Source of the DNA: Amphiura filiformis
Lineage: Eukaryota > Echinodermata > Ophiuroidea > Amphilepidida > Amphiuridae
Length of the DNA: 64,000 nucleotides
Direction of reading: 5' to 3'
NCBI RefSeq assembly: GCF_039555335.1
Contig: NC_092628.1
Location: forward strand, 83,106,315-83,170,314
In this document: positions 882-25,186 of the stretch, in pieces
Layout: each line of letters begins with the position of its first letter
Position numbering within the stretch: the first letter of the stretch is position 1
Translations under genes and position numbers: made by a program
The notes under the pieces: generated by a model
What the model saw: only the letters and a program-made list of their open reading frames with translations
Database searches by the model: none
What the model was told of the DNA's origin: nothing

Positions 882-2903
882 CTGAATTGCTATGAGAATA
901 GCTGCCATAATGAGCTGTTCCTTTGGACCAGTTCCTTTTGGACGTCTCGTTGACTTCTTCGCCGCATCAAAGATGCGATATATGCGATTGACTTTGAGCA
1001 AAGTCGGAGCATATATAAGTGTAAGACAAAGTGATATCACAGCGTGTACCAGTATGCAAGTTAGAGAAGTTGGTTTTGTGAAAAGTAAGAAGACCGCCAA
1101 ATATCCTAACAATAAACCAAAGATGTTTACAGCACTTAACTCTCGGCTACTTGCTTTCACTTGTGGATGATTGCGATGCTTGATCAGTCCAAATGTGGTC
1201 AAACTACAAAGTGCGACACCCAAGCAAGTCAACAGAATAATCGTTACAAGTACGGGATGTCGCATATCTAACAAAGTTGGTGACATTTTTTCGCAGTTAG
1301 TGAAGTCATCATTTGGCCATTCTGTATACTCACATGCTTTACATTCAGTGCCATTGAGAACTATTTCATAGTTTTGACATTTTTGGCAACCCCAACAACA
1401 CTTTTCTTCTAAAGGCACCACAATATATCCCTTATGACAACCCTCACGACAACTTGAACGCGGTGCTGCAATACCAGAACCATTGAACCACCTGATCTTT
1501 TCTGGATAAATGGTTAACTTCTCTGATGTGTTTAGCGCATCCCAAATAGCAATATCGACAAGAGCAACCTCCCCTGTCTCCAAAATCTGCAAGTTTTTCA
1601 AAACATACTTTCCACTGAGATCGCCTTTTGAATCCAATTTAAATTGTCCTCTTGTGCCTTCAAAGCTTGTGTTTCGTATAAACCCAAGAAGATCACGACC
1701 AGTAAAGTTGACTTGAGATAAACACTCGGTATTCATATCTGAGCAATATTCTCTGAGTAAAGTGTCAAGAGCATGTGAAAATGCAAAAACCGAATCAATA
1801 ACAGCTGCTGCTAAACCACCTAATCCCGCAGATTCATAATCTCCAATGATTTCCAAATCGTTATTTTGTTGAAAATACATCTCAAGCCACGGGTTACCTC
1901 TTGTTTTACGTGATAAATGAGTAAAATAGTTCTTAAAGTTTGGTGGAGTCGGGGTGAAGAAATGTACAAATAAACCACCGATTGGTAAGATTTCATCGGT
2001 TTGTGGAGACATTGTGTATCCCCAGTAATCGCTACCTACCCAGGTAATTTTGGAGGCAAAATCTGGATACAAAGCTCTCAACGTTTTTATGATATTATTC
2101 GCTGTAACTGATTCAACAATCATTACTACCACCTTGGCATTTTTGGAGTTGTATAGCTCATTTGCAAGCTCTGTTAACTCTGTTGATGTTTGGATGCTTT
2201 TTACGGATAATGATGTAGCGATGCAGATTTCTCTTTCTCTGGCGTAAGATTGAAAAGCGTGAGATGCTTGAATACCGTAGGTGTTGGCTAAGTATACAAT
2301 GGATACGTATTCCCAATTGAAATATTTTAGGAGATCCGCAAGAGCTTCACCCTGGTGACTGTCAGGAGGAACTGCACGAGAGAAGAACTCAAAACGGGAT
2401 TTATCACTCAGTTCGTCACTGCTCGCTCCAAATGAAATACTTGGCAATTCAAGAAGGTCGCATATGGCGCTTACTGCAACGGATTGTGGGCTCGTATATG
2501 GTCCTACAAATCCAACAAAGTTACCTAAATATGCAAGTTTTTCGCTTTCCAAATTGGCACCCAGATCATCGTAAGCTAAGGAAAAGGCTGCCCAAAATGC
2601 CGTATCCTCGCCAAGGCAATCGTCGCGAATATCGAAACCCAAAGTCACATTTGCCAATATGTCTGTATCGTCATTGATGACATTAACAGCATAAACCATA
2701 GCTTGCAGTAGTTGAAGTGTCGTCAATGTTGGGGCTGATCCACAGGGCGATTCGCCGTCGTGACTCGACAGAGGTAGTATTCCACCCAACATGAAATGTC
2801 CTTGTTGTTCATACGACACTCGAGCTGCGCCAGGAATTCTGCAGTTAATTAATCTGACTACAATCACAGAAACAAGAAAAGTTAAAACCAAATTCGTCAG
2901 CAT
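882..2903 (-). CDS. Class C GPCR (mGluR-like) large exon, copy 1, open
   Basis: The exon encodes the front 674 residues of a metabotropic glutamate receptor-like protein, a cell-surface receptor expected to bind a small ligand. In order: signal peptide (1-21, ending LINC), Venus-flytrap domain (about 30-475) with Cys54/Cys96 and a SSDELSD motif at 161-167, a cysteine-rich domain with nine Cys (485, 489, 502, 503, 506, 509, 521, 524, 537), TM1 (about 549-573), TM2 (588-608), TM3 (614-638), the loop NRIYRIF and the start of TM4. The frame ends at CAG|GTAAT (minus strand), leaving phase 0. By remembered alignment to mGluR1, the alpha-amino-acid contacts Ser165, Thr188, Asp208, Tyr236 and Asp318 correspond to Ser138, Ser161, Asp181, Tyr209 and Asp292. 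The glutamate side-chain contacts Arg78 and Lys409 correspond to Leu65 and Leu364. The start ATG has A at -3 and precedes a clear signal peptide. TM4-TM7 are not in the window. Confidence 0.9.
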
Positions 2904-3004
2904 TTTTGCTCAAATGATACTGAAACTGTAGAATTAACAGGTTTTCCTCATGAATGGCTAAAGCAAAGTAAATTCCAGCCAGTGTGTTTTAAATAACAAA
3001 CACG

Positions 3005-3090
3005 TACAGAGTTTATACAGATTTAGACACGATTTTCAAAAAGAAATCAGTTTTTTTGTCAATTAAGTGATTGCTTGCCGTCAATAGCTA
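3005..3090 (-). promoter_or_regulatory. Candidate core promoter of receptor copy 1
   Basis: A TATA-like box (TATAAAC on the minus strand) lies at 3011-3017, about 108 bp before the start codon. A second conserved block at 3070-3087 contains TTGCTTGCC on the plus strand. Both blocks recur upstream of copy 2 at similar spacing, and the second recurs in the fossil 5' end near 17505. Conservation in a diverged flank suggests function, but transcription start sites are unknown. Confidence 0.4.
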
Positions 3091-3254
3091 ATTAAAATGA
3101 ACGTTCGCAACAAAAGGTGCTCAAAGATTATAATTTTTGATCTCGCTAAATGCGCTAATTAAGACCAATCATTTTTCATTTAAGTAATTATTTTTTCATA
3201 ATTAAAATGGTTACACTGTTTGTAAGGTTTCAGGTGTTTATCTATCAAGCCTTC

Positions 3255-3456
3255 AATGAGCTAATCCACACTCCCCGTGGAACTTTGGAACTATCTTCCA
3301 TAGAAAATTTAGGTTAAATCTCGTATTCAGATTGAATCTTTCTCAGAAGGGGTATGAAATTCAAATGGAGCTGCCTGCTGTGTTCATTCAATTTGAAATT
3401 CATACACCTCTGTGGGAGATATTTCCAAAATGTTCAATAGGGTTAGTGTGGAATTT
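3255..3456. mobile_element. Hairpin element related to the 50.4-kb family
   Basis: The left part (TAATCCACACTCCCC) and the right part (GGTTAGTGTGGAATTT) are imperfect inverted repeats. Internal TTTGAAATTCATAC blocks match the hairpin family at 50398-50592 and 56772-57042. No coding capacity, so a non-autonomous MITE-like element. Confidence 0.5.
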
Positions 3457-6379
3457 AATTGGAAAATCCAAATTTTGTTAAGAACCCAACTGACCTGATT
3501 AAAAACAACCATTTAAAAATATAATAAGAGCTACGATAGTTAAAATTGTCCTTTTTCTATACTAATGGTTTCAAAAAACCAACAAAAAAAACCTAACTTT
3601 TCATTCAAATTACAACGTGATTGGATTGGGTTAATAACACAAACTTGTTTTCATAAAAGTCAAAAGTAGAAAATTAATGGAAATGTTCATGTTTACCCAT
3701 TTGTTCAAGAAAGGCACATACGTTTATCTTTTGACACACTACAAATTAAAGAAATTACAAAACTTGTAAGGTTATCTATGGAAACATATTGATTAACCAC
3801 AAACGTTGTATGTTTGTTAACTTCTTAATTCCTGCTTCACATTGACTATACCATAATCGATTTTTGAAGCTTTTTGATAAATAAAAATATGTTATTAATC
3901 ATAATGAACGCATTCAGTTTAACTCGAAATTATACTGATGTTTATTACATCAAACTACTAGTAAAGAGTTATAAAAAGTTTATATAATTAGTGACTGTAA
4001 AAGTTACGTATACGTAGGCCTACATTATTGAATGCAACATAATCTTAATGGCATAACTATTATGGCTCACTTCAATACTAAACAATTCTGATTTAAGAAC
4101 CCACCAGTGTATTGATCGCGAAAGCCCGAGTAAAAAATCTGGGAAGCTAACAAACAGAGGGCGTACGGTGACTGAAAAAATCAAGATGTGAAATTCTATC
4201 AATTGTGCACAAATTAATACAAATTAGATAGCTAGAGTATGTACAGTGGGCAAGTGGACTACGGAGAAGTCTATGTTACCCAAGCTGCCGTATCCCAAAT
4301 GCGTCAGTATGTGATGCGCCTGCATATACACTGAGATGTTTTGGTCGAATGTCATAAGGTGGGCATGCAAGAAGGGTGGCGGTGGAACATGTTTTCCGCA
4401 CAATGCCCAGGATAAATTATTGTAGCATTACAACCACCCCTAATCTGAATTAATTGTTAAGGTCTCATTTTAAAGCTTAAAGTAACAAATGCTGCTACAT
4501 ATGTAACCAACACAGTGTCAGAAGAGCTCTTCAATGTCAGTAACAGTTCGAACATATTAAGTTTGACGAGACAGGGGTGGGGGTAGAGGTGGCTGAGGTC
4601 CATGTTAAAGTGTCAGGAAATTGGTTTTTATTGAGTTATCGTCATGATCGTCATCAAGTATTTTGATACAGGGCTGATTCATGTATCATATCATGAGTAA
4701 TGAATCTATGAAATACGGTAGTTTAGGAACATAATTCTGTTCCCGTTATTGCAAAATGGTCACATATTTTGGTTCAAGTTCACTTTTATGTGCTAATCAA
4801 TGGAAAGCACGGCGCTAGTTCTGTTGTTCGAGAGAGAATGCGTTGTCTGCAAATCAATACGACATGCAATGAAGCAAACTTTAAACTTTGTATCTCCCTT
4901 GTTTTGTTTGGATCATCGTGTCTCAATTTTCTTGAACGATTTGTTCAAGTCGCTTTACAAAGTAGTATTTTGTAATACTGCTTAATTATATTGCTGAAAT
5001 ATTCTCCTATTATGTAACTGGTCACCCGCTCAGATCTTCAAATGATCACCAGGTCTTGCAATTGACAAAGCATGGAATGGTCTACTACATCATATCAGGA
5101 AAGCCTTACCAATACAAACACTTTCACACACTTTTTTGGATCTTTGGTTGTTGTTGCTTATGTTTTTTTTGAAAACCCAAAGTTGCTGATAATGATTGGC
5201 TTTTCAAAAGGCGATCGCTAAATACATAGCCTTGGCTCAAATAGTATCTAGAAGCAGCACGCGCGTGCTGTTTTACAGCGATAATGGCATGCCGATTTGT
5301 CGTGGTATGTGGCAATTGCCCCAACCATAATTGGTTTTCCATCTTTTGGTGTTTTTCTTAAAGGCCCATTCAGTCATTTGCTCATCCGGACGATCGTAAA
5401 AATCATCAAAATTCAGATTTGTCATAGATGTGCTAACATAGGCTGCAAGTGGTTCAGCCGAAAGCTGTGTATTTAAGACAAAATAAGACATTTTACACAA
5501 ATCTGTAGTTTAGATACTGACAGTATCTAAATTAGCTACATGTATTTGAATGGAGCGTCATCTTAGTTAGTACTGCTGTTTTCTTCGTTTTTTGCCAAAT
5601 TTGTCATTTCAAAAATACCAAATTACGATTTGAGTGACTTATCCTTCATTTTTAAGCAATTTATAAACAAGTTTAATTTTTTTACACTTGTGCTGGGATC
5701 ACTGAATGGGTCTTTAATCTTAGTGCAATTATTGCACATTAAGCTCCGCTTGTGTTATGTGTGTGGTATATTTATATTATGCTCCTTTCACACATTGCCG
5801 GATCAGCCCTACGTACAAGAAACGGATGGTATTTTAGTAATACGTAGTTGTTCGTCAATGTTCGTTTTATGTTCATTTTATGTATTGCTATCATCCGCCA
5901 AATGCGTTTTGTGTTAAGCGATGATCATTAAGTCCGTCGGCAAGGTTTGTGCATGCCGAATTCACTACAAAATGAATTTAAGCAATACAAATCAGTTAAA
6001 CATTTCCGTAATCAATTTAAGCAAAAACTTACGTTTGATATTTTTTTCCTTCTCTTTTGAGCACTTAAAACAAATTTAACCTATGGTTTATAAATTTCTT
6101 TGAGCCCCGTCCTTGTCTTGTTCCGTAGTTGTACTATTTGGCTTTGTTTTTGTTTTTTAAATATTTGTTTGTTTGTTTTTGTTTCTACCCCTATAGGGGA
6201 AGGCATTTTACAGGCCTATTTGGCTATGGGCTGGTTCATATGTTACTCCTATACCAGAATAAGGACATGAGCTTCCTTTGCCTCCCTAGCTCGGTTATTT
6301 CCCCTTTCACTTGTTCTTCCTCCTTCTCAGCATCCAGTTGCCTAGGAATATTAGTTGTCTTCATCATCTTGTAGGGTAG
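3457..6379. other. Intergenic or intronic spacer, no gene recognised
   Basis: Only short AT-rich open frames without recognisable domains occur on either strand. In particular there is no minus-strand frame resembling TM4-TM7 of a class C receptor. Confidence 0.5.
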
Positions 6380-6614
6380 AGGTACCTGAGACCTGGGAAA
6401 AATCAAGACTTCACCGATGCCACTGTGTGGGTACATACACACAGATCTCGCTCAGTGGCGGCTCAGGTGCATCCCCATATGATTTAGTATGGGTGGCAAC
6501 TGGACTAAATGCTGAACTCTATATCTTTATATCCTTTGAGTAAATTAGGAATAAGTCGGGCCAACGGCGACTAAACCGTCAACCCCACTGGTTTTCCAGA
6601 TGGGATCCAGTGAG

Positions 6615-6805
6615 GAGGGTGGCTGGACACCCCTATGGAAATAAATACAAGATCCATCTACAAGAGCGGAGGAGCTCTCTTGAAAGAGCCAACGGCCATC
6701 CAGCAAAAGGAGGGTGGCTGGACACCCTGATGAAAATGAATGCAAGCTTCTATCTACAAGGACGGATGAGCTCTCTTGAAAGAGCCAACGACCATCCAGC
6801 ACAAG
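6615..6805 (+). repeat. Two 95-bp tandem units in the 5' region of the RTE element
   Basis: Each unit opens with GAGGGTGGCTGGACAC and contains GAGCTCTCTTGAAAGAGCCAAC. The units begin at 6615 and 6710. Tandem 5' repeats are common in LINE 5' regions, where they may act as internal promoter units. Confidence 0.75.
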
Positions 6806-6959
6806 TTGTACATGACAGTGCCATGGCAACATTACCTGAAGGAGATGCTTTTAAAGCACCAGCAAAGGCAAGATCCGCAGGAATCCCAGTCAGCGGGACA
6901 GCACTGAGGCCGAAGGTAACGGGAGCCCACTGTCTTAATATCTTCCCGAGAATACCATT

Positions 6960-9558
6960 ATGAGTCGCAGATCAGAAAGAATACGTGTTAAACAGATGGG
7001 TGTTGGGACCCTTAGGGCACCTATCCGAGATGCTACTGAGGAAGAGGTTGCTGAGCCTGAGAGGAGTGCGAATGATGACGGCGTTACCCCAAATTCTACG
7101 GAAAGGATAGCGCTTGACGGCAGCATTACCAATCGGTCTCATGTCAACCTGATGGGGAAGAAAGGAAAGGTCTTCCAAATAGGAACATGAAATGTAAGAA
7201 CTATGAATCAGGATGGAAAACTGGAGCTGCTACTTGAAGAGGCAGATAGACTACATCTAGATGTTCTTGGCGTCAGTGAGACTAAATGGAAAGGTGAAGG
7301 ATCTTTTCAACCAGACAAAAACACCAAAATCTTGTTCTCAGCATGCTCAGGAAAACCTAGTGGGAAGAAAGAAAATGGAGTTGCTATAATCTTGAAAGGA
7401 GCGGCATGCAAGGCATTTGCGAGCTACAATCCAATCTCCGATCGACTCATCACTGTAAGACTTCTTGCTAAGCCCAAACCAATAACCACCCTGCAGGCTT
7501 ATGCCCCAACATCCAGTCACGATGATGCAAGCATTGAAGAGTTCTATGTACAGATGCAATCGGTTTTGGACAAGATTAAGAAAGGAGATGTATGTGTGGT
7601 TATGGGTGACATGAACGCCAAGGTTGGAGAAGGCGAGGACAAGAAATGTGGAATTGGAAAGTTTGGCCTAGGAGACAGAAATGAACGAGGGGACAGGCTT
7701 GCTGAATTCTGCTGCGCCAACAACCTAGCCATCATGAATACTTGCTTCAAACATCACAAAAGAAACCTGTACACATGGAAATCACCTGGCGACCGTTACA
7801 GAAATCAGATTGACTACATCATGATGAAAAGAAGGTGGAAATCGAGTGTCTGGGATGCAAAGACATACCCTGGGGCTGACTGTGATACAGATCACATACT
7901 ACTAGCAGCAAAGATGCGAGTGAAGCCAACATGCAACAAACCAAAGAGAAGATCAGGCAAACTGAATGTTAAGAGGCTGAATGACCCCACCATCAAGGCC
8001 AAGTTCAAGCATGAATCCGAACAACAATTCAGAAATGAAGCGATGAACCAAAATACATCAAGTGAAACTAAACCTGAATTCTTGTGGGTAACATACAAAA
8101 CCATCTTGACACAGACAGCTGAGCAAACAATTGGTAGAGCCAAAAGAGTTCCCAAGAAGCCATGGATTAGCCAAGAAGTACTTGATCTAGCTGAGGAAAA
8201 GAGCAAGTTGCGCAAACAAAGTAACACGCCAACCCAGAAGCAGTGATATAAAGAACTGCGTGCTGAGATCCAGAGGAGAATCAGAAGAGATAAGACAACA
8301 TGGCTTGAAGAACAATGTAAGCAGATTAAAGACTTTGATGCAACCGGAAAATCCAAGGCCATGTTTGAACAGATCAGATCAGTAAAAGCCAAGTCTACTC
8401 CAACACAGCAAGCATGCATCAAGGATATAGAAGGAAAAGTCCTCAGTGAATCGGAAGATATCATGAACAGATGTTGGTATGCCTTCAGATACTGATGGAG
8501 AAGATACTTGGAATAGGTGAAGAAGTCTTTGTCATGTTCATTGATTATTCGAAGGCATTTGACTCAGTCAGCCATGTTAAACTGTTTGCTGCAATGGAAG
8601 AAATGGGCTTCCCAGTACATCTTGTGTCTCTGCTACAATCCTTGTATGTAAACCAGAGAGGAAAGATCAGGTGGAATGGTAAAAATATAGCATGACCAAA
8701 GGTGTGAGACAGGGTTGCATTGCGTCACCATATCTTTTCGTGACATACACAGAGAAAGTGATGAGGGATGCTGATGTAGATACTTATGGCATCAAAGTAG
8801 GAGGCACTCCTTGAAACACCAGTAGAGGACATAGAAAAATTGGAAACAGCAATAAATGAAACTGGCAAAGACATGAATCTCAAACTCAACGTGAAGAAAA
8901 CAAAACTTCTTGTCGCAGAGGCAGTAGAAAAAGAGCACAACATCACAATAGATGGAGAAGAAGTAGAACAGGTCGACCACTTCAAGTATCTGGGCTCGGT
9001 AAAAACATCAAATGCAAATTGCACGGCTGACATCAAAGCCAGGATTGGAATGGCCAAAGGAAGAATGATCGAACTTCAGGATTTGTGGAATGATCGAAAC
9101 CTTCCAACAGAACTGAAACTGAAACTGATCAAGATACTGGTATGGAGTGTACTCCTTTATGGCCTGGAGGGCTGGGCTATGACCAAAGCAGATGAGAACC
9201 GGGTGCTTGCTGCTGAAATGTGGTTCTGGAGAAGAATGCTAAACATCAGTTGGAAGGAGAGAAGAACAAACAGAAGCATCCTTGAGGAACTTGGTGTGAG
9301 CTTGGAGAGTTGGTGACAAGAAAGCTAACCTACCTTGGTTACATCCTTAGAGGAAGTGGCAGTGCATTAACACTCCAGATAATAGAAGGAAAAGTTGAAT
9401 GGAGAAGAAGGAGAGGAAGACAGAAGAAACAATGGTTTGACAACATCAAAGAATGGACAGGAACGAGCCTAGTGCAAGCCAAGCGTCTAGCTCAAAACAG
9501 AACGGCTTGGAAGAAGGAGATAAGGAGATGCAGCCAGATGGTAGCCAATCGTCAGTAG
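6960..9558 (+). pseudogene. RTE ORF: endonuclease plus partial reverse transcriptase, dead
   Basis: The endonuclease is well kept from about 7190 to 7930: VSETKW, VMGDMNAKVG, RNQIDYI and the catalytic DTDH with His. Two in-frame stops look like Trp-to-stop changes: TGA at 7187 inside the expected IGTWNVRT motif, and TGA at 8245. After 8465 the frame jumps directly to a palm motif (FIDYSKAFDSV), so the fingers of the reverse transcriptase (normally about 150 residues) are deleted. GVRQGC follows near 8703, but the catalytic YADD region that should come next is missing near 8815. The C-terminal half (8840-9558) shows MNLKLNVKKTK, FKYLGS and WSVLLYGLEGW, with one more frame change near 9310. It cannot encode an active enzyme. 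Confidence 0.85.
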
Positions 9559-9590
9559 TGACGGCGGCCGAAGAAGAAGAAGATTATATG

Positions 9591-9837
9591 CTGCCTGTCT
9601 TCGAGAGGGTTTTCTGGTGCTGGCGACGGATGCAATTAATACTGGCGAACATATGGGACGGGGGTTCACGGATTCGCCGGTTATTTGCTGGACGTTGAAC
9701 GAATTAACATATAGGATATACATTTGACGCCTGCAGGATTATTATACCGACCATGCATAGAGAAACGAACTGAAATTGGCCATTTGTCATTGCAAATACG
9801 TTCCTGTGAGGCCCCCAAATCTTCTGCCGGACTGGTG
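9591..9837. other. Spacer between RTE element and a DNA element
   Basis: No gene or recognisable repeat seen. It forms the left flank of the insertion site of the 504-bp element that follows. Confidence 0.4.
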
Positions 9838-9845
9838 ATTTCGGC

Positions 9846-10349: not shown

Positions 10350-10617
10350 ATTTCGGCACGGCGACGTACGTTGACCCAATCCGTGTATGTGTGACAGAGC
10401 ATTACTATGTATGCAATAAAATATACAATTAGTGTTCAACAATATCAGTATCAAAAATCTTACCGTTCAAATGGACTCTTATAAAAGTCATCCCTCGAAG
10501 GCGACAGCTACGACTACACCAACTAAAACTACAGCATAGTACAGCAACGACGAAGATAAAAACAATAACAATAATAATGGGGATCAAATATAAAATTGAG
10601 ATTACTAAATGGGTTAC

Positions 10618-12633
10618 CTGAATTGTTATGAGAATAGCTGCAAAAATAAGCTGTTCCTTTGGACCAGATCCTTTTGGACGTCTCGTTGACTTCTTCGCCG
10701 CATCAAAGATGCGATATATGCGATTGACTTTGAGTAGTGTTGGAGCATATATAAGTGTAAGACAAATTGATATCACAGCGTGTACCAGTATGCATGTTAC
10801 CGATGTTGGTTTTGCGAAAAATAAGAAAACCGCCAAATATCCCAGCAGTAAACCAAAGATATTAAGCGCACTCAACTCGCGACTACTTGCCTTCACGTGC
10901 GGGTGACTACGATTCTTGATCAGTCCAAATGTGGTAAAAATACAAAGTACTACACCCAAGCAAGTCAACAGAATAATCGCTACAAGTACGGGATGTCGTA
11001 TATCTAACAAAGTTGGGACATTTTTTCGCAGTTAGTGAAGTCATCATTTGGCCATTCTGTATACTCACATGCTTTACATTCAGTGCCATTGAGAACTATT
11101 TCATGGTTTTGACATTTTCGGCAACCCCAACAACACTTTTCTTCTAAAGGCACCACAATATATCCCACATGACAATCAAGTTGAACGGGGTGTTGCAATA
11201 CCCGAACCATTGGACCATCTGATCTTCTCTGGATAAATGGTTAACTTCTCTGATGTGTTTAGCGCATCCCAAATAGCGATATCGACAAGAGCTACCTCTC
11301 CCGTCTCCAAAATCTGCAAGTTTTTCAAAAGATACTTTCCATTGAGATCGCCTTTCGAATCCAATTTAAATTGACCTCTTGTGCCTTCGAAGCTTGTGTT
11401 TCGTATAAACCCAAGAGGATTACGACTAGTAAAATTTACTTGAGATAAGCAATGCGTCATCATATCTGAGCAAGATTCTCTAAGCAAAGAGTCAAGAGCA
11501 TGTGCAAACGCAAAAACCGAATCAATTACGGATGCCGCGAAACCACCTAATCCCGCAGATTCATAATCCCCAATGCTTTGCAAATCGCTGTTTTGTTGGA
11601 AATATATTTCAAGCCACGGGTTACCTTTCATAGTTTCACGCGATAAGTGAGTAAAGTAGTTCTTAAAGTCTGATGGAGGCGGGAGGAAAAACTTAACAAA
11701 TATACCACCGAGTGGTAAGATTTCATCGGTTTGTGGAGACATTGTGTATCCCCAGTAATCGCTACCTCTCCAAGTTATTTGAGAGGCAAAATTTGGATAC
11801 TTATTTGTCAACATTTGTATGATATTATTCGCTGCAACTGATTGAACGAACATGACTACCGTTTGGGCTTGTTTGGAATTGTATAGAGCATTGACAATCT
11901 CTGTTAACTCTGTTGTTGCTTGGATGCTTTTTACGGATAATGATGTAGCGATGCAGATTCCTCTTTCTCTGGTGTAAGATTGAAAAGCGTGAGATGCTTG
12001 AATACCGTATGTGTCGGCTGAGTATACGATAGAGACGTATTCCCAATTGAAATATTTGAGGAGATCCGCAAGAGCTTCACCTTGCTGACTGTCAGGAGGA
12101 ATTGCACGAGAGAAGAACTCAAAACGTGACTTGTCGCTTAATTCGTCACTGCTCGCTCCAAATGAAATCATTGGCAATTCAAGAAGGTCGCACATTGGGC
12201 CAACTACAACGCATTGTGTGCTCTTTATAGGTCCTACAAATCCAACAAAGTTTCCTGAAAACGTATCTTTGCCGCTTTCCAAATGTTCACCCAGATCATT
12301 TTGAATTAAGGAAATGGCTGCCCAAAGAGTAGTGTCTTCCGCAAAGCAATCGTCGCGAATATCGAAACCCAAAGTCACATTTGCCAATATGTCTGTATCA
12401 TCATTGATGACATTGACGGCATAAATCATAGCTTGCAGTAGTTGAAGTGTCGTCAGTGTTGGTGCTGATCCACAGGGCGATTCGCCGTCGTGACTCGACA
12501 GAGGTAGTATTCCACCCAACATGAAATCGCCTTGTTGTTCATACGACACTCGAGCTGCGCCAGGAATCCTGCAGTTAATTGATCGGACTACAATCAGAGC
12601 AACAAGAAATGTTAAAACCAAATTGGTCTGCAT
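10618..12633 (-). pseudogene. Class C GPCR large exon, copy 2, two frameshifts
   Basis: Closest to copy 1 in signal peptide (start MQTNLVLTFL), ligand domain and flanks. The first 485 codons are open and cover signal peptide and a complete Venus-flytrap domain. An 8-bp deletion near 11180, at the ligand-domain/cysteine-rich-domain border, then brings a stop at 11176. The cysteine-rich domain continues in another frame (about 11004-11200, all nine Cys region visible). A 1-bp deletion near 11017 restores the original frame for TM1-TM3, which is intact to the donor CAG|GTAACC at 10618/10617. As written it could give only a secreted ligand-binding domain, so it is most likely a pseudogene. Its ligand residues match copy 1 (Leu for Arg78, GSD motif kept). 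Confidence 0.85.
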
Positions 12634-12728
12634 TTTTGTTTCAATGATATTGAAACGAAGAATGACGAGCTTTACTCCTTGATGGCTACACCGAAGTAGA
12701 TTGAAGCCGATTTGTTTAAAAGAAAATA

Positions 12729-12832
12729 GTTTATACCGATTTCGATCTGATATTTAAAGGAAACGTTGATACAAAAGTAACAGAAAATAAGAGCTTCGAA
12801 AATAAGAGAAAACATTGCTTGCTGACAGTTAG
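12729..12832 (-). promoter_or_regulatory. Candidate core promoter of receptor copy 2
   Basis: A TATA-like box at 12729-12735 lies about 96 bp before the start codon, in the same GTTTATAC context as copy 1. The conserved TTGCTTGC block is at 12813-12832. Together they form the conserved upstream module of subfamily A. Confidence 0.4.
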
Positions 12833-13467
12833 TTGATACAAGTGAAGTGACTCGCCGCAAAAATGTGTTTTTAGATGTGATATGATTACATTATGGCCTT
12901 GCTAAATTAACCTATTTTGTAATTAACATATTCCAATTAAAATGATTACTCTTAAAGTAATCTATTGTCTATGAGTCGCGTAGTCTAGCCTTCAATTTGG
13001 TTAAGAACCAGTAATGACGCCATCAAATACCAATCATTTATCTATTTACATAATTAAAACTTCCCAGTGCTACAAAAGTTATGATTCCCTTTTCTATCTC
13101 TTCTATGGGTTAGAAGTAAAACAACAACAACAACCGCAAAACAAAACGAAATTTTTTTTCAACGACACCCACAATTCAAGAGGTATATATAAATTAAGAG
13201 GAGAATATACAAGAAATGTGTATGAATGTTAATTGCGCCCCAATTTGCATAGCACAATTTCGTTAAAGAATATTTATTACAATGAGTATTATTTAACAAG
13301 TAAATGTCACAACTATATTTCTCATTCCGTTAAATGACTCTCAATATGTCTCTTATTAGTGGAAAGGCTGGCTAAACTTGTTCCTTCTTATTAAAATAAG
13401 TATCATTTTGAGGATTATAGACCTGTTACTTTTCTGTGTGTAAAGTATGATAAATGTTTCCGGCTTA
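12833..13467. other. Upstream flank of receptor copy 2
   Basis: No gene. The stretch 12890-13065 is clearly paralogous to 17590-17765, sharing CCAATTAAAATGATT and GTCTAGCCTTCAATTTGG. At 13431-13467 it carries GTGTGTAAAGTATGATAAATG, which recurs at 22590-22618 beside copy 4. Confidence 0.55.
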
Positions 13468-14523: not shown

Positions 14524-15047
14524 CAGACACTAATTGATTTTAGGTACAAAGAAAAATATGTGAAAAGTATATCGGGGTTTAGGTGCTTTAGAAATCGTAA
14601 GCAACGTTCAATATTAAAGAGCATAAGGGACATTTCTTCTACTTGTGTTCAGCTATTTACAGATGCATTATTCAGGCAATTAAAAAAACCCTCAGATGGT
14701 GATTCTGTTAGGACTGTGAGAGAATGATGGTAAGTGTTTACAAATAAATTATATCGTATGACGAGGTGAACTTGAACGTTCACACAAATTTAGGATACAA
14801 ATCGTTTGTGCAATTTGGTCTCGTATCTCAGTTTTAGTAGATTTTTTAAAAATAAATAAACAAAGTACAAAACAAAAACTAGAAGTTGGGATGAAAATGT
14901 GAGAAATTGATTCATGGACGCCACTTTATTTGTGTCTGACCGTTCATTGCAGCTCTGACCAAAATCAACAGCTCGACGACGACAACTGAGACGACAATAA
15001 TAACAATTGCAAATACGACAACAATAACAACAACAACAACAAGAACG

Positions 15048-15117
<70 letters not shown>

Positions 15118-15161
15118 AATCACTGTTGACCAATATATTATTGACATTACTAATGGGTTAC
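14524..15161. other. 3' flank of receptor copy 3, duplicated beside copy 4
   Basis: Starting at CTAATTGATTTTAG this matches 22646-23164 beside copy 4, including ACAAAGAAAA.TATGTGAAAAGT and the (CAA)n tract. It is the beginning of the intron after copy 3's splice donor. No exon seen. Confidence 0.65.
15012..15118. repeat. (CAA)n microsatellite in the copy 3 intron
   Basis: Nearly pure CAA/ACA triplets for about 100 bp, within 50 bp of the splice donor of copy 3. A shorter tract sits at the equivalent place beside copy 4. The poly-Val and poly-Leu open frames here are artefacts of the repeat. Confidence 0.95.
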
Positions 15162-17183
15162 CTGAATTGTTATGAGAATAGCTGCAAATATAAGCTGTTC
15201 CTTTGGACCAGTTCCTTTTGGACGTCTCGTTGACTTCTTCCCCGCATCAAAGATACGATATATGCGATTGACTTTGAGCAGTGTCGGAGCATATAAGAGT
15301 GTAAGACAAAGTGATATCACAGCGTGTACCAGTATGCATGTTATCGATGTTGGGTTTGCGAATAATACAAAGACAGCTAAATATCCTAGCAGTAAACCAA
15401 AGATATTAAGCGCACTTAAGTCTCGGCTGCTTGCCTTCACATGCGGGTGATTACGATTCTTGATCAGTTCAAATGTGGTCAAAATACACAGTACTACACC
15501 CACACAAGAAAATAGAATAATAGTTACAAGTACGGTATGTCGCATATCTAACAAAGTTGGGGATATTTTTCGCAGCTAGTAACATTTTCATTCGGCCATT
15601 CTGTATTCTCACATGCTTTACATTCTGTGCTATTGAGAACTATTTCATGGTTTTGACATTTTCGGCAGCCCCAACAACACTTTTCTTCTAAAGGCACCAC
15701 AATGTATCCCACATGACAATCTTCACGGCAACTTGAACGCGGTGTTGCAAAACCCGAGCCATTGAAGCCATTTGATTTTCTCTGGATAAATAGTTAACTT
15801 CTCTGGTATGTTTAGCGCATCCCAAATAGCAACATCGACAAGAGCAGCTTCTCCAGTCTCAAGAATCTGCAGATTTTTCAAAACGTACTTTCCGCTCAGA
15901 TCACCTTTAGAATCCAATTTAAATTGACCTCTTGTGCCTTCAAAGCTTGTGTTTCGTATAAACCCAAGAAGATCACGACCAGTAAAGTTGACTTGAGCTA
16001 AACACTCGGTATTCATATCTGAGCAAGATTCTCTCAGTAAAGAGTTAAGAGCATGTGCAAACGCAAAAACCGAATCAACAACGGACGCCGCTAAACCGCC
16101 CAATCCCGTAGATTCATAATCCCCAATGATTTCCAAATCGCTGTTTTGTTGGAAATACATTTCAAGCCACGGGTTACTTTTCGAAGTTTTAGCAGATAGT
16201 TGTGGGAAATATTTCTCAAAGTCAGGCGGTGCCGGAAGGTAAAAGTTTACAAATATTCCACCAATCGGTAATATTTCATCCGTTCTGGGCGACATTGTAT
16301 GTCCCCAGTATTCACTACCAATCCAGGTGATGGTTGAAGCAAATTCGGGATACATATTTTGTAAAGTTGCGATAATCGCGTTTGCAGTTCCCGTGCCGAC
16401 AAACATAACCACCACTATAGCCTTCCGTGCCTCAAATAACGCATCTGCGAGCTCCGTGAACTCCCTTTCGGTTTGGACATTTCTAACTGGCACAGATAGT
16501 GCGATACAAATGCCTCTTTCTGTCACGAAATTTTGGAAAGCGTGAGATGCTTGAATACCGTAAGTGTTGGCAAAGTATACAAGTGAGACGTATTCCCAAT
16601 TAAAATATTTGATGAGATCCGCAAGAGCTTCACTTTGATGACTGTCAGGAGGCACGGCACGCGAGAAGAATTCAAAACGGGACTTATCGCTCAATTCATC
16701 GCTGGTCGCACCGAAAGAAATACTTGGAACTTCCAGAAGGTCGCACACTGCGCCAACTACGAAGTTCTGCGTACTCGTTAAAGGTCCGATTAATCCTATC
16801 AAATTTCCTCGAGGATCCTGATTTTCTGTCTCAGCAATACCACATGAACCTTTGTCTATCAAAGAAAGGGCTGCCCAAAGAGCAGTATCCTCGGCGAAAC
16901 AATCGTCACGAATGTCAAAACCCAAAGTTACATTCGGTAATAGGCCAGTATGGTTATTGATAACATTGACCGCGTATACCATTGCTTCAATGAGTTGGAG
17001 TGTCGTCAATGTTGGAACTGAACCACAAGCCGATATTCCTTCAAGATTCAATGGAAAGATTCCACCTATCTTGAAATCTCCTGGCTGGACGTAAGACACA
17101 TGAGCTGCTTCAGGAATTCCGCAGTCAACTGATGTAATGGCAACCAAAGAAGCAATAATAGCTGAAGCCAAAGTCGACCACAT
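15162..17183 (-). pseudogene. Class C GPCR large exon, copy 3, two frameshifts
   Basis: Belongs to subfamily B with copy 4 (start MWSTLASAII). Signal peptide and Venus-flytrap domain are open. A 1-bp insertion near 15770 (ATTGAAGCCA where copy 4 has ATTGAACCA) shifts the frame and gives a stop at 15723. The cysteine-rich domain (DCHVGYIVV, CCWGCRKC, ECKAC) reads cleanly in the shifted frame. A 1-bp deletion in a T-run near 15561 returns the original frame for TM1-TM3, intact to the donor at 15162/15161. The ligand motif is GSE rather than GSD, as in copy 4. The two single-base shifts could be real or homopolymer sequence errors. I call it a pseudogene provisionally. Confidence 0.75.
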
Positions 17184-17280
17184 TTTGCTACTTCAATTTT
17201 GATGCAAGAATTGAATATGTCTCTTTTGTTGATGGTTAATATATAGTAGATTTAAGATGATTTGGTTATCATATCACCAC

Positions 17281-17765
17281 AGCTAGCTGTTCGGACTACA
17301 ATCAGAGCAAAGAGAAAAGTTAAAACTAAATTCGTTCACATATTTTGCTTTAATGATATGGAAACGAAGAATGAGAAAGTGTCACTCGTCGATGGCTACA
17401 CAGAAGTATATAGATTGAATTAGGATTTTCAAAAGAAACGTTGATACAAAAATATCAAATCAGAAAATAAGAACTCCTTCGTCAATTATAAGAGAAGTGA
17501 TATATTGCTTGCCGATAGTCGATACAGGTGAAGTGAATCGCTGCAAAAATGTTGTTTTAAGACGTGATCAGAATATATATAGTATGGTCTCGCTAAGAGG
17601 CTACCTTGTTAGTACCAATCATTCAACCCATTTAACCCATTCTAGTATTTTCCAATTAAAATGATTTCTCTTAAAGTAATCTTTTATCTATAAGTCACGA
17701 AGTCTAGCCTTCAATTTGGTTAAGAACCGGTGATAACGTCATTAAATACTATACTAATCATTTAT
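17281..17765 (-). pseudogene. Fossil 5' end of a subfamily A receptor copy
   Basis: The sequence matches the 5' end and promoter flank of copy 2 (12577-13065). It includes about 18 signal-peptide codons with their ATG at 17339-17341, the TTGCTTGCC block near 17505, CCAATTAAAATGATT and GTCTAGCCTTCAATTTGGTTAAGAACC. It abuts the subfamily B 5' flank of copy 3 at a sharp breakpoint just after CACCACAG (17280). It is the remnant of a further copy removed or replaced by unequal exchange. Confidence 0.75.
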
Positions 17766-18209
17766 CTTTTTAGTAAACGAATGTGTGTGTGTGTGGGGGG
17801 GGGGGGATATGAGGCAAACCGAGGGGTTGAGGCAAGCGATTTTTGGTACAAATTCATGGGGCGCTTTTTAATCAAACGCTCAAAAAGACTTGGGAAAACA
17901 GTATGTACGGAAACGCTTAAATACGCAAACGTTTCAAGGGGTCCAATTGGGTCCCGACTTACGCTAGAGTGAAAACAACAATGCGATTAATATTGCAACA
18001 CGTAAAAATACAGCCAATTCAGAAATCAATCAATATTCTGATGATGCTTTTCGACCATGAAAAGCGAAACCACCTAACTAGTGAGTAAAATTTGGTTTGG
18101 TTTAGAAGAATCTTCGTAATTAATTCTTTGTATACGATGGTTGACCATTCTTATGATTACCAAACTGGTATTCAAATCTGTGCTGTGATTGGCACCTGCA
18201 TTAGGTATC
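17766..18209. other. Spacer with TG and G runs and a dispersed repeat
   Basis: A (TG)n plus G-run lies at 17781-17808. The following GCGATTTTTGG...TTCATGGGGCGC...TTGGGAAAACAGTA resembles 33415-33535, so a dispersed repeat family is likely. No gene. Confidence 0.5.
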
Positions 18210-18823: not shown

Positions 18824-19224
18824 TTTGTATGCCATGCGATTCAGCAAGCTGGCTATTGACTGACCTTGACTGAGGCTTGATTGGGCACTCTCATCTGCTA
18901 TAAAGCATCCAGTTTAAGATTGAGTGGTTTAGGATCGGGTCACTACTAAATCCTACATTAACTCATGAGAGCAAGATGACAGGGGTGTCAAGAGTAGCTA
19001 ACCATCAAAATATCGCATACCGAAAGTTGAACACAAGGACAATTTAGTTTTCATACTTTTTTCTTTATTAATTTTTATTTTTCTCTTATTTTTTCATGGT
19101 TCAACTTATTGCACAAAAGAAACAAATCGAAAAAATAAATATTGTACACTGAAGTTTTAGAGATTCTAGACTCGTAGCGGTAGTGAAGAACGTGTTATGA
19201 GTTGAAATTGCTGCTGTAAGAATA
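18824..19224. other. Spacer, no feature recognised
   Basis: AT-rich sequence without convincing open frames or repeats. Confidence 0.4.
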
Positions 19225-19570
19225 TTGTACAAAGAAGAGCAGCGCGGTTTTGCACCAACAACTACAGGAACACCCCGGGCACTGTCACAGATATTCTCAA
19301 ATTGAACTCGCCAACACTACAGCACAGAAGGAAAACGTCACGACTCATCACAATGCACAAGATTCAGCACCAAGAAATATCTGTTCCAATACCAGACTAC
19401 ATACAAAGACAATCTGCCACTCACACTCGTCAGTTTCATCCTGCTAAATTTCGTGTCGTGGGTCCATCCTCCAACACCTACAGCTTTTTCCCCTGGAATA
19501 CCGGAATGGATTGATATGCCCTCTTCATTACTTGATTGCACAAAGTTGAGCCTCTTCAAAGCAGGACTCT
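19225..19570 (+). mobile_element. LINE 3' fragment (reverse-transcriptase C-terminus)
   Basis: Translation gives QRRAARFCTNNY, then TDILKLNSPTLQHRRKTSRL, LITMHKI and a region with SYFPRT-like context (TYSFFPWNT) followed by LDCTKLSLFKAGL. That order is typical of the last 120 residues of CR1/Jockey-superclade LINE proteins. The rest of the element is absent. Confidence 0.7.
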
Positions 19571-19796
19571 GTTATTTAATTACCTTTTCTGAACCGCGTC
19601 TTTTGACGTCCGGTGTCGGCAATCATGTTCTTGGTCAGATATTGCCTTTATGGCAACTTTACTAAGTATTGTAGATGTAGATTTCTGACAGAACTCTGAT
19701 TAATTATTCTTTTTTCATCAGAATAAAACACTCCATGCATTAGCCAACTCAAATGCCCACCACGGTGGCTGTGACGGCGCGGGTGTTATGAACCTC
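19571..19796. other. Short spacer between LINE pieces
   Basis: No feature recognised apart from its position between a plus-strand LINE end and a minus-strand LINE tail. Confidence 0.4.
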
Positions 19797-22460
19797 AATC
19801 CAATTCAATTCAATTCAATTTAATTCAATTCAATTTAATTTATTTCCATCAAAAATACAAAGAATAATGATAAAAAATACACAAGATGGAGGAGATGCAA
19901 CAAAAGGCAAATGCCTGCAAAAGTGTTGCACCACCTTACAAAAAAAATTAAACACACACACATAACAACTAACCAAGACAAGTGCGGAGGCCTAACAAAC
20001 AAAGGATGAACAAAGATAAATATGTCAGTGTCGTTAATTTACCGGTAAATTAAAAATGACGGTTAATCAACCGGTAAATTAGCGTTAATTTACGATAATT
20101 AATGTAAATTATGAAAATACAAAATTGCAAACTTTACTTACTAAGAAACTGAAGCCTTGAAAGTAGAGGATAGTCTTGTAGCAAAAAACAGATGAAACTC
20201 AATGATAACATAACCCCAGACCGAAACACTTAATACCGAAACACAAAATAAGCTTTCAACCCCCCCCACCGCAATCCAGCCAAACTGCAACGTTTCCAGG
20301 GAAAAAAATTATGGTGATAATTAACCGGAAATTTACCGACTCACAACACTGGAATATCTACTACTCATATCTACTACTTAGGAAAGAAGAGAGAGAGCTT
20401 TCTTAAAAGAATTCAAATTTATTGCATCTTTAACTGATTCAGGTAAACTGTTCCAGAATTTTGGTCCTGTGTTCAAAACTGTTTTTAATTTTATGAATTT
20501 CATGTCGGAAATTTGTTTTGTATTTAGTATCATATTCATGGAAGCTTCCTAATTCAGTAAAAACATGATCAAATGATGACGTAAGTAAACCCTTCTTGTA
20601 CTTATATATGAAAATACCCAGCTCTTTGTTATCTATTTCAAAAATGTTCAGAGTATTATATTTGTCAAACAATGGTTTTGTATGACACAAGTATGAGCTG
20701 TTTGATATTATTCTTATAGCCCGTTTTTGAAGTTTAAATACTTTCGTTAGATAGGTCATAGATGCATAACCCCATAACAATATTCCATATAATAAGTAAG
20801 GTAAGATAAAAGAACAGTATAATTGATACAATGAATTTTTGGGCAAGAATTGCTTGACTTTGTTCAAGACACCCAGATTTATGAAACACAACTTGCAAAC
20901 ATTTTCAATATGAGATTTCCATGTCATGTCAAATTGTCATCTATAATCATGCCTAAAAACTTTGTACTAGTAATTCTCGTCAGTTTACAACCATCTAATT
21001 AGCATTTTCCGTTTTATAGGTAGTTCCAAGTAACATTAGATTAGTTTTAGAAGCATTAAGAGATAATTATTACATTTGAACCAATTGCATACTTCTTGCA
21101 GTTCATTATTCATTGTATCATAGAGAACGTTAATATCTTTATCAGAAAAAAATACAGTAGTATCATCAGCAAAAAGAATAAACGATAGCAGTTTTAAAGT
21201 ATTACAAATGTCATTCATGTACAGAATTAAAAAGTAGTGGCCCAAGTATAGAACCCTGAGGTACACCACAAATCACTTTTTCATGCAATGGAACTGTATT
21301 ATTAAATTTAACATATTGCTTTCTATTCGAAAGGTAATCTGAGAACCATGCATGAGAAATCCCACGGAACCCATAGTGATACAGTTTATCCAGTAAAATA
21401 GTATGGTCAATGGTGTCAAAGGCATTTGACAGATCCATAAAAATACCTACAGTTAAATTATCATCATCAATAGCTTTACTAACCTCCTTATTAAATTCTA
21501 GTACAGCCAAATATTAGTGGTATGATTGTCCTGAATCCATATTGCTTTTGATACAAAATATTATTTTGACCAAGAAATCACAGCACCTGTTATGAACAAT
21601 ACGTTCCAAAATTTTAGAAAAAGTGGGTAAGACAGAGACAGGTCTATAGTTACCAAAATGTTGTAGGTTGTCTTTAAAAAAATAAATAAATAGGAACAAC
21701 TTTGGCTACTTTGATATCATCGGGTACTGTTCCAGTACTAAGAGATAGATTAAATAACATTTTCAATGGATAGCAAATTTCATTCGCTGCTGTTTTTATG
21801 AGATCTGATTTGATATTATCATGACCAGGGCTTTTTCTATTCCCAAGCTTTCTAATGATTTTAACCATTTCTTCCTCATCCGTAAGTCGTAGAAAGCATG
21901 TAGCACTAAAGTGAGTATTTTTCAAATATGAGTTGTAATCATTACCAGTGTGTTTAATGCTAGAGGTTAAAGTTGGGCCTATACTGGAAAAGTACATATT
22001 AAACTCATTAGCAATTTCCTTTGAGTCAGTAAGTGTTTCATTATTTTTGGGGAATTTACCTGAAATATGATTTTTTTTAAGTCCTAAAGATAGAATTCAA
22101 AATCTTCCAGGTACTCCTCATATTGTGTTTTTCTTTATCTAGCAAGCTGCTGAAGTAATTTTGTTTTGCCAAACGAAGCGTAATATTAAGTTTATTACGA
22201 TACATTTTGTATTTTTGAATATTATGTTCTGTTGGTCAGTTTAATGATTTTTTATATAATAGATTTTTTCTTCTTATACATTTCATCAATGATTGTGTAA
22301 TCCAAGGGGACTTCATAGATGATTTCTTTAACTTTTTTGGAAAATATTCATCATACAACGAATTGAATTTATTAATAAACGACATATACGATTTGTTGAC
22401 ATCATCAGATGAGCACACATCATCCCAATCTACTTCGTGTTGCATTAAGCCTTTGTCACG
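19797..22460 (-). mobile_element. 5'-truncated LINE with AATTG tail, minus strand
   Basis: Read on the minus strand: linker (22445-22236, SPWITQSLMKCIRRKN), LGNRKSPGHDNI (about 21850), NYRPVSVLPTFSKILERI (about 21650), palm FMDLSNAFDTIDH and GVPQGSILGPLLF (21510-21211), catalytic FADD (about 21180), then LPYLLYGILLWG and LQKRAIRII (20927-20439). A final frameshift leads to KFWNSLPESVKDAINLNSFK near 20430. The 3' untranslated region ends in a (AATTG)n-type tail at 19797-19850. Endonuclease is missing and several frameshifts break the frame. Most similar in style to CR1/Jockey-superclade elements. Confidence 0.85.
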
Positions 22461-23164
22461 TAAATAGCTTGCTCAGGAATGCATGCAATGCGGGCTCATA
22501 CACAAGTTGTGAACTTGTTAACATTACCTTAGATTATTTTCAAAAATCTACATGTAACCTTTTTTTTGGATCCCGGTACCTGCTTCTGTTCTGTGTGTAA
22601 AGTATGATAAATGTTCCGGCTTCTTCTTCTAATCATCACTTTATGTGAAACTAATTGATTTTAGTTACAAAGAAAAGTATGTGAAAAGTCAAAATCAAGG
22701 TTTAGGTATTTAGACATTTCTAAGCAACGTTACATATCAAAGAGCCTAAAGGACTTCCTTCTACTTAGGTCAAAGTGTTCAACTATTTATAGATTTATTT
22801 CAGGCCCTTATAACCCCTATAATTATAATAGTAGTATGCTGAACCTAGAATAAAACTCGTTTGTGTAATTTTGTCTCGTGTTAGTAGCATTTTGCATTTA
22901 TAAACAAATTTCAAAACAAAAACTAGATGTCGAAGTTGGGATGAAAAAGTGAGAAATTGATTCACGGATGCCACTTTCTTAGTGTCTTACCGTTCATATT
23001 GGCTCTTACCAAAATCAACAGCTCGACGACGACAACTGAGACGTCAATAATAACAATTGCAAAGACGACACCAACGACACCAGCAGCAACAACAACAATA
23101 ACAACAACAACAACAACAACAACAACACTGCTGAGCAATATAATTAACATTACTAATGTGTTAC
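22461..23164. other. 3' flank of receptor copy 4, paralogous to copy 3 flank
   Basis: From 22588 on it matches the copy 3 flank (13431-13467 then 14524-15161). It lacks the LINE fragment present there, so it shows the pre-insertion arrangement. It is presumably the intron start of copy 4. No exon seen. Confidence 0.65.
23083..23128. repeat. Short (CAA)n tract in the copy 4 intron
   Basis: Interrupted CAA/CAG/ACA triplets at the position homologous to the roughly 100-bp tract beside copy 3, so the microsatellite has expanded or contracted since the duplication. Confidence 0.9.
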
Positions 23165-25186
23165 CTGAATTGTTATGAGAATAGCTGCAAAAATAAGCTG
23201 TTCCTTTGGACCAGTTCCTTTTGGACGTCTCGTTGATTTCTTCGCCGCATCAAAGATGCGATATATGCGATTGACTTTGAGCAAAGTCGGAGCATATAAG
23301 AGTGTAAGACAAAGTGATGTCACAGCGTGTACCAGTATGCATGTTACCGATGTTGGTTTTGTAAAAAATAAGTAGACCGCCAAATATCCTAGCAGTAAAC
23401 CAAAGATATTGAGCGCACTCAACTCTCGGCTACTTGCCTTCACGTGCGGGTGACTACGATTTTTGATCAGTCCAAATATGGTCAAAATACACAGTGATAC
23501 ACCCACACAAGAAAACAGAATAATCGTTACAAGTACGGGATGTCGCATATCTATCAAAGTTGGAGAAATTTCCTCGCAATTGGTGAAATATTCATTTGGC
23601 CATAGTGTAAACTCACATGCTTTACATTCAGTGCCATTGAGAACTATTTCATGGTTTTGACATTTTCGGCAACCCCAACAACACTTTTCTTCTAAAGGCA
23701 CCACAATGTATCCCACATGACAATCTTCACGGCAACTGGAACGCGGTGCTGCTATTCCCGAGCCATTGAACCATTTGATCTTCTCTGGATAAATAGTTAA
23801 CTTCTTTGATGTGTTTAGCGCATCCCAAATAGCGATATCGACAAGAGCAGCTTCCCCAGTCTCAAGAATCTGCAGATTTTTCAAAACGTACTTTCCGCTG
23901 AGATCGCCTTTCGAATCCAATTTAAATTGACCTCTTGTGCCTTCGAAGCTTGTGCTTCGTATAAACCCAAGAAGATCACGACCAGTAAAGTTGACTTGAG
24001 ATAAACATTCGGTAAGTATATCTGAACAAAATTCTCTCAGTAAAGCGTCAAGAGCATGTGCAAACGCAAAAACCGAATCAATAACGGATGCCGCTAAACC
24101 ACCTAATCCCGTTGATTCATAATCCCCAATGATTTCCAAATCGCTGTTTTGTTGGAAATACATTTCAAGCCACGGGTTACCTTTCGATGTTTTAGCAGAT
24201 AGTTGTGGGAAATATTTCTCAAAGTCAGGCGGTGCCGGAAGGTAAAAGTTTACAAATATTCCACCAATCGGTAATATTTCATCCGTTCTGGGCGACATTG
24301 TATGTCCCCAGTATTCACTACCAATCCAGGTGATGGTTGAAGCAAATTCGGCATACATATTTTGTAAAGTTGCGATAACTGCGTTTGCAGTTCCCGTACC
24401 GACAAACATAACCACCACTTTAGCATTCCGTGCCTCAAATAACGCATCTGCGAGCTCCGTTAACTCCCTTTCGGTTTGGACATTTCTAATCGGCACAGAA
24501 AGTGCGATACATATGCCTCTTTCTGTCGCGAAATTTTGGAAAGCGTGAGATGCTTGAATACCATAAGTGTTGGCAAAGTATACAAGTGAGACGTATTCCC
24601 AATTAAAATATTTGAGGAGATCCGCCAGAGCTTCACTTTGATGACTGTCAGGAGGAACTGCACGCGAGAAGAACTCAAAACGGGACTTATCGCTCAATTC
24701 ATCGCTGGTCGCACCGAAAGAAATACTTGGAACTTCCAGAAGATCGCACACTGCGCCAACTACAAAGTTCTGCGTACTCGTTAAAGGTCCGACTAATCCT
24801 ATCAAATTTCCTCGAGGATCCTGATTTTCTGTCTCAGAAATACCACATGAACTTTTGTCTATCAAAGAAAGGGCTGCCCAAAGAGCAGTATCCTCGGCGA
24901 AACAGTCGTCACGAATGTCAAAACCCAAAGTTACATTCGGTAATAGGTCAATATGGTTATTGATGACATTGACCGCGTATACCATTGCTTCAATGAGTTG
25001 GAGTGTCGTCAATGTTGGAACTGAACCACAAGCCGATATTCCTTCAAGACTCAAAGGAAAGATTCCACCTATCTTGAAATCTCCTGGCTGGATGTAAGAC
25101 ACACGAGCTGCATCTGGAATTCCGCAGTCAACTGATGTAATGAAAATCAAAGAAGCAATAATAGCTGAAGCCAAAGTCGACCACAT
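23165..25186 (-). CDS. Class C GPCR (mGluR-like) large exon, copy 4, open
   Basis: Subfamily B receptor exon of exactly 674 codons, the same length as copy 1, ending in phase 0 at CAG|GTAACAC. Signal peptide (MWSTLASAII...SVDC), Venus-flytrap domain, nine-cysteine domain (CREDC, CCWGCRKC, ECKAC) and TM1-TM3 are all intact. By remembered alignment to mGluR1 it keeps Ser165 (GPLTS), Thr188 (GATSD), Asp208 (PPDS) and Tyr236 (NTYG). It has Glu for Asp318 (GSEYWGH), and Leu for both Arg78 (LQLIEAM) and Lys409. It should bind an alpha-amino acid or related ligand other than glutamate. TM4-TM7 are not found downstream within the window. Confidence 0.9.

Follow-up and report, generated by a model that had tools for sequence, protein, structure and literature searches.

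Four class C receptor head exons in tandem, with no TM4-TM7 exon detected, in a 64-kb stretch of the Amphiura filiformis genome

Four head exons and the search for their tail

How could a locus that carries four copies of the front half of a receptor, and no recognisable back half, produce a complete protein? This question is raised by a 64,000-nucleotide stretch of the genome of the ophiuroid Amphiura filiformis (NC_092628.1, positions 83,106,315 to 83,170,314; hereafter the window). Its minus strand holds four exons, here called A to D, that encode the front part of class C G protein-coupled receptors (GPCRs) resembling metabotropic glutamate receptors (mGluRs). We refer to these exons as heads and to the missing part, from transmembrane helix 4 (TM4) to TM7, as the tail. 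The array is real and unusual, partly in the way that a preliminary description of this DNA had proposed. The best reading is that the heads are alternative first exons sharing a downstream tail outside the window, and we consider this about evenly poised between right and wrong.

The heads were placed by stop-to-stop frames, alignment and a donor search:

23165..25186, minus strand: head exon D, intact, donor at 23164; ATG, hydrophobic putative leader, Venus-flytrap ligand domain, NCD3G-like domain, TM1 to mid-TM4.
15162..17183, minus strand: head exon C, with its donor preserved at 15161; broken around the cysteine domain by a 1-bp insertion near 15767 and a 1-bp deletion near 15569.
10618..12633, minus strand: head exon B, with its donor preserved at 10617; broken by an 8-bp deletion near 11177 and a 1-bp deletion near 11016.
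882..2903, minus strand: head exon A, intact, donor at 881; the closest of the four to the window's left edge.

As in a cluster of alternative first exons, the heads lie in tandem on one strand, and each has its own ATG and an equivalent donor, with two of the four broken further in. The exon ends in CAATTCAG followed by GTAA in all four (last exon bases 882, 10618, 15162 and 23165), and the donor always falls after IQ in phase 0. The four are co-linear and share 79-90% DNA identity. These results bear out the preliminary description, which had reported four tandem same-strand exons with equivalent phase-0 donors after IQ at 881, 10617, 15161 and 23164. Its spacing of 4.6 to 7.7 kb needs correction, as the gaps from donor to next ATG measure 6.0 kb (D to C), 2.5 kb (C to B) and 7.7 kb (B to A). 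It had also treated the four exons alike, overlooking the frameshifts and stops in B and C; A and D alone are intact, each open across 674 codons. In both B and C a stop lies between the two lesions, and the lesions cluster round the cysteine domain. One C lesion falls within a run of A and may reflect an error of sequencing; such an error could hardly explain the 8-bp deletion in B.

All four heads match the ligand-domain family PF01094 (ANF_receptor) in Pfam, with E 3e-58 to 2e-61. The nine-cysteine domain PF07562 gives a borderline match in A and D, at E 2e-9 to 3e-9 and slightly below the curated cut-off (37.0 and 37.3 bits, against 38.9), and B and C are frameshifted within this region. 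The Pfam profile of the seven-transmembrane (7TM) family, PF00003, is 251 positions long; A matches it over positions 2-132 and D over 2-131, and the TM part of C matches a full-length family profile with E 5e-53. No complete 7TM domain is present; the window holds TM1 to mid-TM4 alone. D aligns to the solved structure of mGluR7 with E 5e-90, which excludes a chance match, and by this alignment the exon spans the ligand domain, the cysteine domain and TM1 into TM4. We take the TM4 assignment and the helix numbering to be those of mGluRs. The exon does not end at TM3 as had been thought.

The heads resemble mGluRs in that ligand domain, cysteine domain and TM1-4 align full length to mGluR7, with mGluR1 also listed; they differ in that the window copies come without any TM4-TM7 exon. 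At the positions that we take to correspond to mGluR1 Arg78 and Lys409, mapped through mGluR7, both A and D read leucine in the mGluR7 alignments. In mGluR1 these two residues hold the side chain of glutamate. According to PMC6307864, all class IV proteins identified there have non-polar or acidic residues at both positions. In these residues the pocket of the window's heads is class IV-like. In one starfish, sensory organs express mGluR-type receptors (PMC6267866). We infer a sensory role for the receptors of the window.

We searched the window for a tail in several ways. A tblastn search with 64 family proteins gave no match at E 0.01 beyond the zones of the four heads. With the 14 tails that could be cut from those proteins at the YRIF motif, the best tblastn match outside the heads had E 0.06, and with an earlier set of 10 tails the best match in the window had E 0.17. 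A tail profile run against the 2,818 stop-to-stop window frames of at least 15 aa reached E 0.045 at best. As a control for power, pieces of 30-130 aa from the tail of a relative (P0065) were placed in the same frame set and sought with a profile for which 22 other full-length proteins were used. All 10 were recovered (E 7.5e-57 to 0.002), and the best genuine window frame scored E 0.74 with this profile. These data support the earlier statement that the window has no TM4-TM7 exon: none was detected in the 64 kb, small exons included. The idea that each copy has several small TM4-TM7 exons, once offered as an alternative, is ruled out for exons of about 30 aa or more by the window searches and the control. 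It is very unlikely in general, as the searches were empty and the tail of relatives reads as one open frame.

Two candidates were rejected. The top sub-threshold tail match, at 62083-62436 on the plus strand (E 0.045 with the profile, 0.061 with tblastn, 0.74 with the control profile), lies far upstream and is taken as chance. The frame of B runs past its donor and draws the Pfam match to 7tm_3 (PF00003) out to position 190 of 251; this extension is hydrophobic, repeat-like intron sequence that the tail profile does not list even at E 10, and we regard it as spurious.

If the tail is shared, heads A to D would serve one gene, for a class C, mGluR-like receptor, as alternative first exons. Each head has its own start codon, a putative leader and presumably its own promoter, and its CAG/GTAA donor lies inside TM4. 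Whichever head a transcript began at, it would meet no acceptor at the heads that it passes. Since first exons need no acceptor, each head donor would be joined to the first receptor acceptor downstream. That acceptor would belong to a TM4-TM7-plus-tail exon beyond base 1, reached by splicing across the intervening heads. The outcome would be several ligand pockets on one signalling half from one locus.

History of the array and selection on the heads

A and B are 88% identical in DNA and C and D 90%, and identity across the two pairs is 79-80%. C and D also have 0.5-0.6 kb of post-donor intron in common, after which their homology ends. It falls in two blocks, 14526-14685 to 22647-22813 and 14791-17271 to 22846-25258. 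Two non-coding features record this history:

14526..15161, minus strand: intron after the donor of C, homologous to 22647-23164 after the donor of D; two blocks, with homology stopping inside the intron.
17280..17772, minus strand: remnant of a 5' end of the A/B type, directly upstream of head C and matching 12572-13048 (69% over 532 columns).

Because C/D homology stops within the intron, the duplicated unit fell short of any tail, as expected for duplication of the head exon only. The relic above C comprises an upstream region, an ATG near 17341 with an immediate TGA, and about 20 leader codons.

An assembly fault could in principle have brought together heads of separate genes and dropped their tails, and the window does contain repeats and retroelement pieces. 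However, the different flanks and the graded divergence of the copies fit a real tandem history, and we think such a fault highly improbable.

Divergence between the two classes is uneven along the exon. Between-class synonymous divergence (dS) is high to about codon 344 and low beyond it (A-D dS 1.19 vs 0.29). In codons 1-350, 195 sites group AB/CD and none group AC/BD or AD/BC; in later codons the counts are 22, 5 and 6. Cutting at codon 344 gives 194/0/0 and then 22/5/6. Of 199 fourfold sites, those in the first half differ more often in each of the four cross-class pairs (Fisher p 2e-5 to 0.008). For A-B the halves do not differ (p 0.6), and for C-D the direction is opposite (4/87 vs 17/112, p 0.019). 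A longest-run test for gene conversion was modest in the cross-class pairs (p 0.0006, 0.009, 0.04 and 0.07), and the case for homogenisation rests on the site-pattern break and the fourfold-site test instead. These patterns are most simply explained by sequence exchange between the classes in the 3' halves, with the ligand-domain halves staying apart.

We then considered whether the copies have been under selection. The ratio of nonsynonymous to synonymous divergence (dN/dS) is 0.33 for A-B, 0.32 for C-D and 0.22 for A-D, with upper 95% bounds of 0.44, 0.49 and 0.27. Private changes, defined as single-base codon changes in one copy where the other three agree, were nonsynonymous in 16 of 47 cases in A, 18 of 38 in B, 17 of 35 in C and 7 of 20 in D. 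The share expected under neutrality is 0.71-0.78 (0.72-0.78 for D), and each copy falls below it (p <= 0.004 for transition/transversion weights of 1-4, and 5e-5 to 7e-4 for D). These are small numbers, and the 3' half is further blurred by gene conversion. Within codons 1-350, D has 0 nonsynonymous changes among 5 (p 0.0004-0.0015); C has 5 among 8 (p 0.2-0.4), so no constraint is shown there. From codon 350 onward, a part that comprises the end of the ligand domain, the cysteine domain and TM1-4, the fraction is 12/27 in C (p 0.0004-0.004) and a weak 13/24 in B (p 0.01-0.06). On these codon counts, D has been under protein-level purifying selection since its split from C. Therefore, if D yields a 7TM receptor in cis, transcription must run through C, B and A before it comes to a tail beyond base 1.

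Selection bears on a second explanation, under which a tail is joined to A but to none of D, C and B; these would be exon-only tandem duplicates that have no present function, C and B being already broken and D intact by luck or recent disuse. The two frameshifts and a stop in each of B and C favour it, as do the retroelement piece within the A-B gap, the unconstrained private changes of C in codons 1-350 and the apparent one head per tail in starfish relatives (below). However, whole-exon private changes are skewed to synonymous in D, C and B alike, which indicates that these copies stayed in use through much of the time since duplication, and no tail relic is detectable near any copy. We consider decay of unused heads doubtful, although it deserves more weight than the other alternatives.

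Relatives and the pairing of heads with tails

The closest named relative of D is P0002, a full-length mGluR-like protein of A. filiformis of 842 aa (70% identity over 99%). Four further close proteins share 66-75% identity with D, and the next tier, from A. filiformis, starfish, acorn-worm and others, about 35-43% (54 matches among 7,995 scored candidates). P0002 carries on past IQ into TM4-TM7 and is thus a case of such a head joined to such a tail. A search for tail frames (31 matches from 96 candidates) returned P0065-P0067, open frames of 157-167 aa that are 80-88% identical to the P0002 tail and start a few residues from the junction. As far as these three indicate, TM4-TM7 in relatives would be one exon-sized open frame. 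Nine of the 14 relatives inspected (P0001, P0003, P0004, P0005, P0008, P0013, P0016, P0019 and P0021) stop either at this IQ/VQ-V point or no more than some 45 residues beyond it, so an exon end at IQ is no peculiarity of the array. A two-part gene, with a big head exon and a tail exon, looks ordinary for the family, and four tail-less heads in a row look unusual. Counting the halves among close relatives was uninformative (four heads, P0001, P0003, P0004 and P0005; three tails, P0065-P0067).

The sequences read through beyond the donor differ among the relatives compared. This is one reason to think it unlikely that the heads give products lacking TM4-TM7, either soluble ligand domains or TM1-4 decoys that pair with full receptors. 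The frames of B and C do stop just after the ligand domain, and a glutamate-binding mGluR relative of Schistosoma mansoni is described as having no 7TM part (PMC3206071). However, the donor is kept in all four heads, and the broken copies lean synonymous from codon 350 on, weakly so in B, whereas a soluble product needs no constraint on its TM part.

Two related arrangements are more improbable again: several tails beyond base 1, with each head pairing with one of them, or trans-splicing between separate transcripts. Tail-only open frames of the kind found in relatives would suit either, but both require more assumptions, and to our knowledge trans-splicing is not known in echinoderms.

Because tails are far more alike than TM1-4, they might be shared or homogenised across echinoderm heads generally. 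To test this, we compared separate trees of heads and tails for 14 proteins. The tails of three Acanthaster proteins do not form one clade (approximately unbiased test, p-AU 0.0008). Of the three head pairs, P0018 with P0061 and P0055 with P0056 reappear in the tail tree, and the third (P0014 with P0015) gets no clear placement there, with only one of the 11 tail branches starred. On these trees those starfish genes look one to one, which speaks against shared tails as a general rule, and we rejected the idea. Nor do the window's relatives show excess tail conservation. The identity of TM5-7 exceeds that of TM1-4 by a mean of 21 points in echinoderms (190 pairs) and by 9 points outside them (the 91 of 105 pairs with enough aligned columns), in sets that differ in depth. 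Relatives of the window's genes have tails 91-96% identical, for which a line fitted to 253 full-length pairs predicts TM1-4 identity near 58-60%. The heads' TM1-4 identity is 61-75% across sources, above the fitted line.

Several observations thus weigh against a shared tail. The tail itself is unseen in the 64-kb window, and two of the four heads are broken. P0002, the closest annotated protein, pairs a single head with a single tail, and that tail appeared in no other protein among 15 matches from 464 full-length-sized candidates, where a variable-exon cluster supported by RNA could have shown several. Starfish tails, to judge from the trees, look mostly to follow their heads, as in a gene with one head per tail. 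Conservation of TM5-7 is general in echinoderms, and high tail identity is therefore no evidence for sharing. Homogenisation of the 3' halves requires tandem copies only, and no splicing. Finally, the selection counts are small, and the changes could partly predate a loss of function.

Alternative first exons with one shared tail nevertheless give the best reading of the absence of a tail from the window, the donor kept in all four heads, the selection on D, and diverged pockets combined with homogenised 3' halves. Variable first exons spliced to one tail beyond base 1 had been suggested from the outset. That suggestion remains the best candidate, gaining from the selection on D and from the point at which C/D homology ends, and losing from the unseen tail, the two broken copies, the one-to-one P0002 and the starfish tails that follow their heads. 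A fuller version is that the locus is a splice-coded class C chemoreceptor cluster, a counterpart of Gr39a (below) with mGluR-type receptors, in which interchangeable ligand-binding/TM1-4 halves, homogenised at the 3' side for compatibility and cut in mid-TM4, would be joined to one common TM5-7 signalling exon. We hold this version tentatively, at a little under an even chance.

Comparable loci and the rest of the window

The gustatory receptor Gr39a of Drosophila belongs to an unrelated receptor family. Its locus (PMC2204066) is the nearest described case in form. Splicing is described there, whereas we infer it for the window. Clustered protocadherins are cadherins and not GPCRs, their constant exons encode only part of the cytoplasmic tail, and their clusters hold more than a dozen variable exons each. 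In the alpha and gamma clusters, tandem variable first exons are spliced to constant exons, and gene conversion is predominant among the variable exons (PMC1885805). The window is similar in that its 3' halves are homogenised and its ligand-domain halves form two clean classes. The same paper describes vertebrate UGT1 as having tandem variable first exons with four shared constant exons. Some exons there are pseudogenes, and residues of the acceptor-binding domain are diversified. UGT1 encodes enzymes, and the paper says that gene conversion does not prevail in it, in contrast to the homogenised 3' halves of the window. A limited look at the open-licence literature (titles and the starts of abstracts) found no such arrangement in class C GPCRs.

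If the shared tail is real, a single class C GPCR locus would make receptors of different ligand specificity that have one signalling half in common and are spliced within a transmembrane helix. This would be a natural set of domain-swap receptors, widening amino-acid or odour sensing without the copying of whole genes. It would also offer a possible reason for head-only and tail-only receptor models in echinoderm genomes. Two such models are P0016 of Patiria miniata (707 aa, head only, ending at the donor point) and P0074 of Acanthaster planci (167 aa, tail only), which are either orphan halves or annotation faults.

The remainder of the window holds mobile elements and repeats. Between A and B, a retroelement piece on the plus strand (7191-9316) carries an endonuclease domain (Exo_endo_phos, E 1e-9); the frame at 8801-9316 has no Pfam match and looks by eye like part of the same element. 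A reverse-transcriptase fragment lies at 27492-28172 on the minus strand (RVT_1, E 4e-9), and of the 140 open frames of at least 75 aa, 95 were scanned and 5 matched RVT_1. Positions 28173-64000 contain no open frame of at least 150 aa, no tRNA and no Rfam match at gathering scores, and are apparently repeats with intergenic or intronic DNA. Within them, two arrays of 24-bp tandem repeats of the GGCTAGTTAAAATTTTGTCCCTTA type (32055-32349 and 34400-34672) form an inverted pair, 87% alike in opposite orientation. The ACA repeat after the donor of C (15018-15117) is a plain microsatellite.

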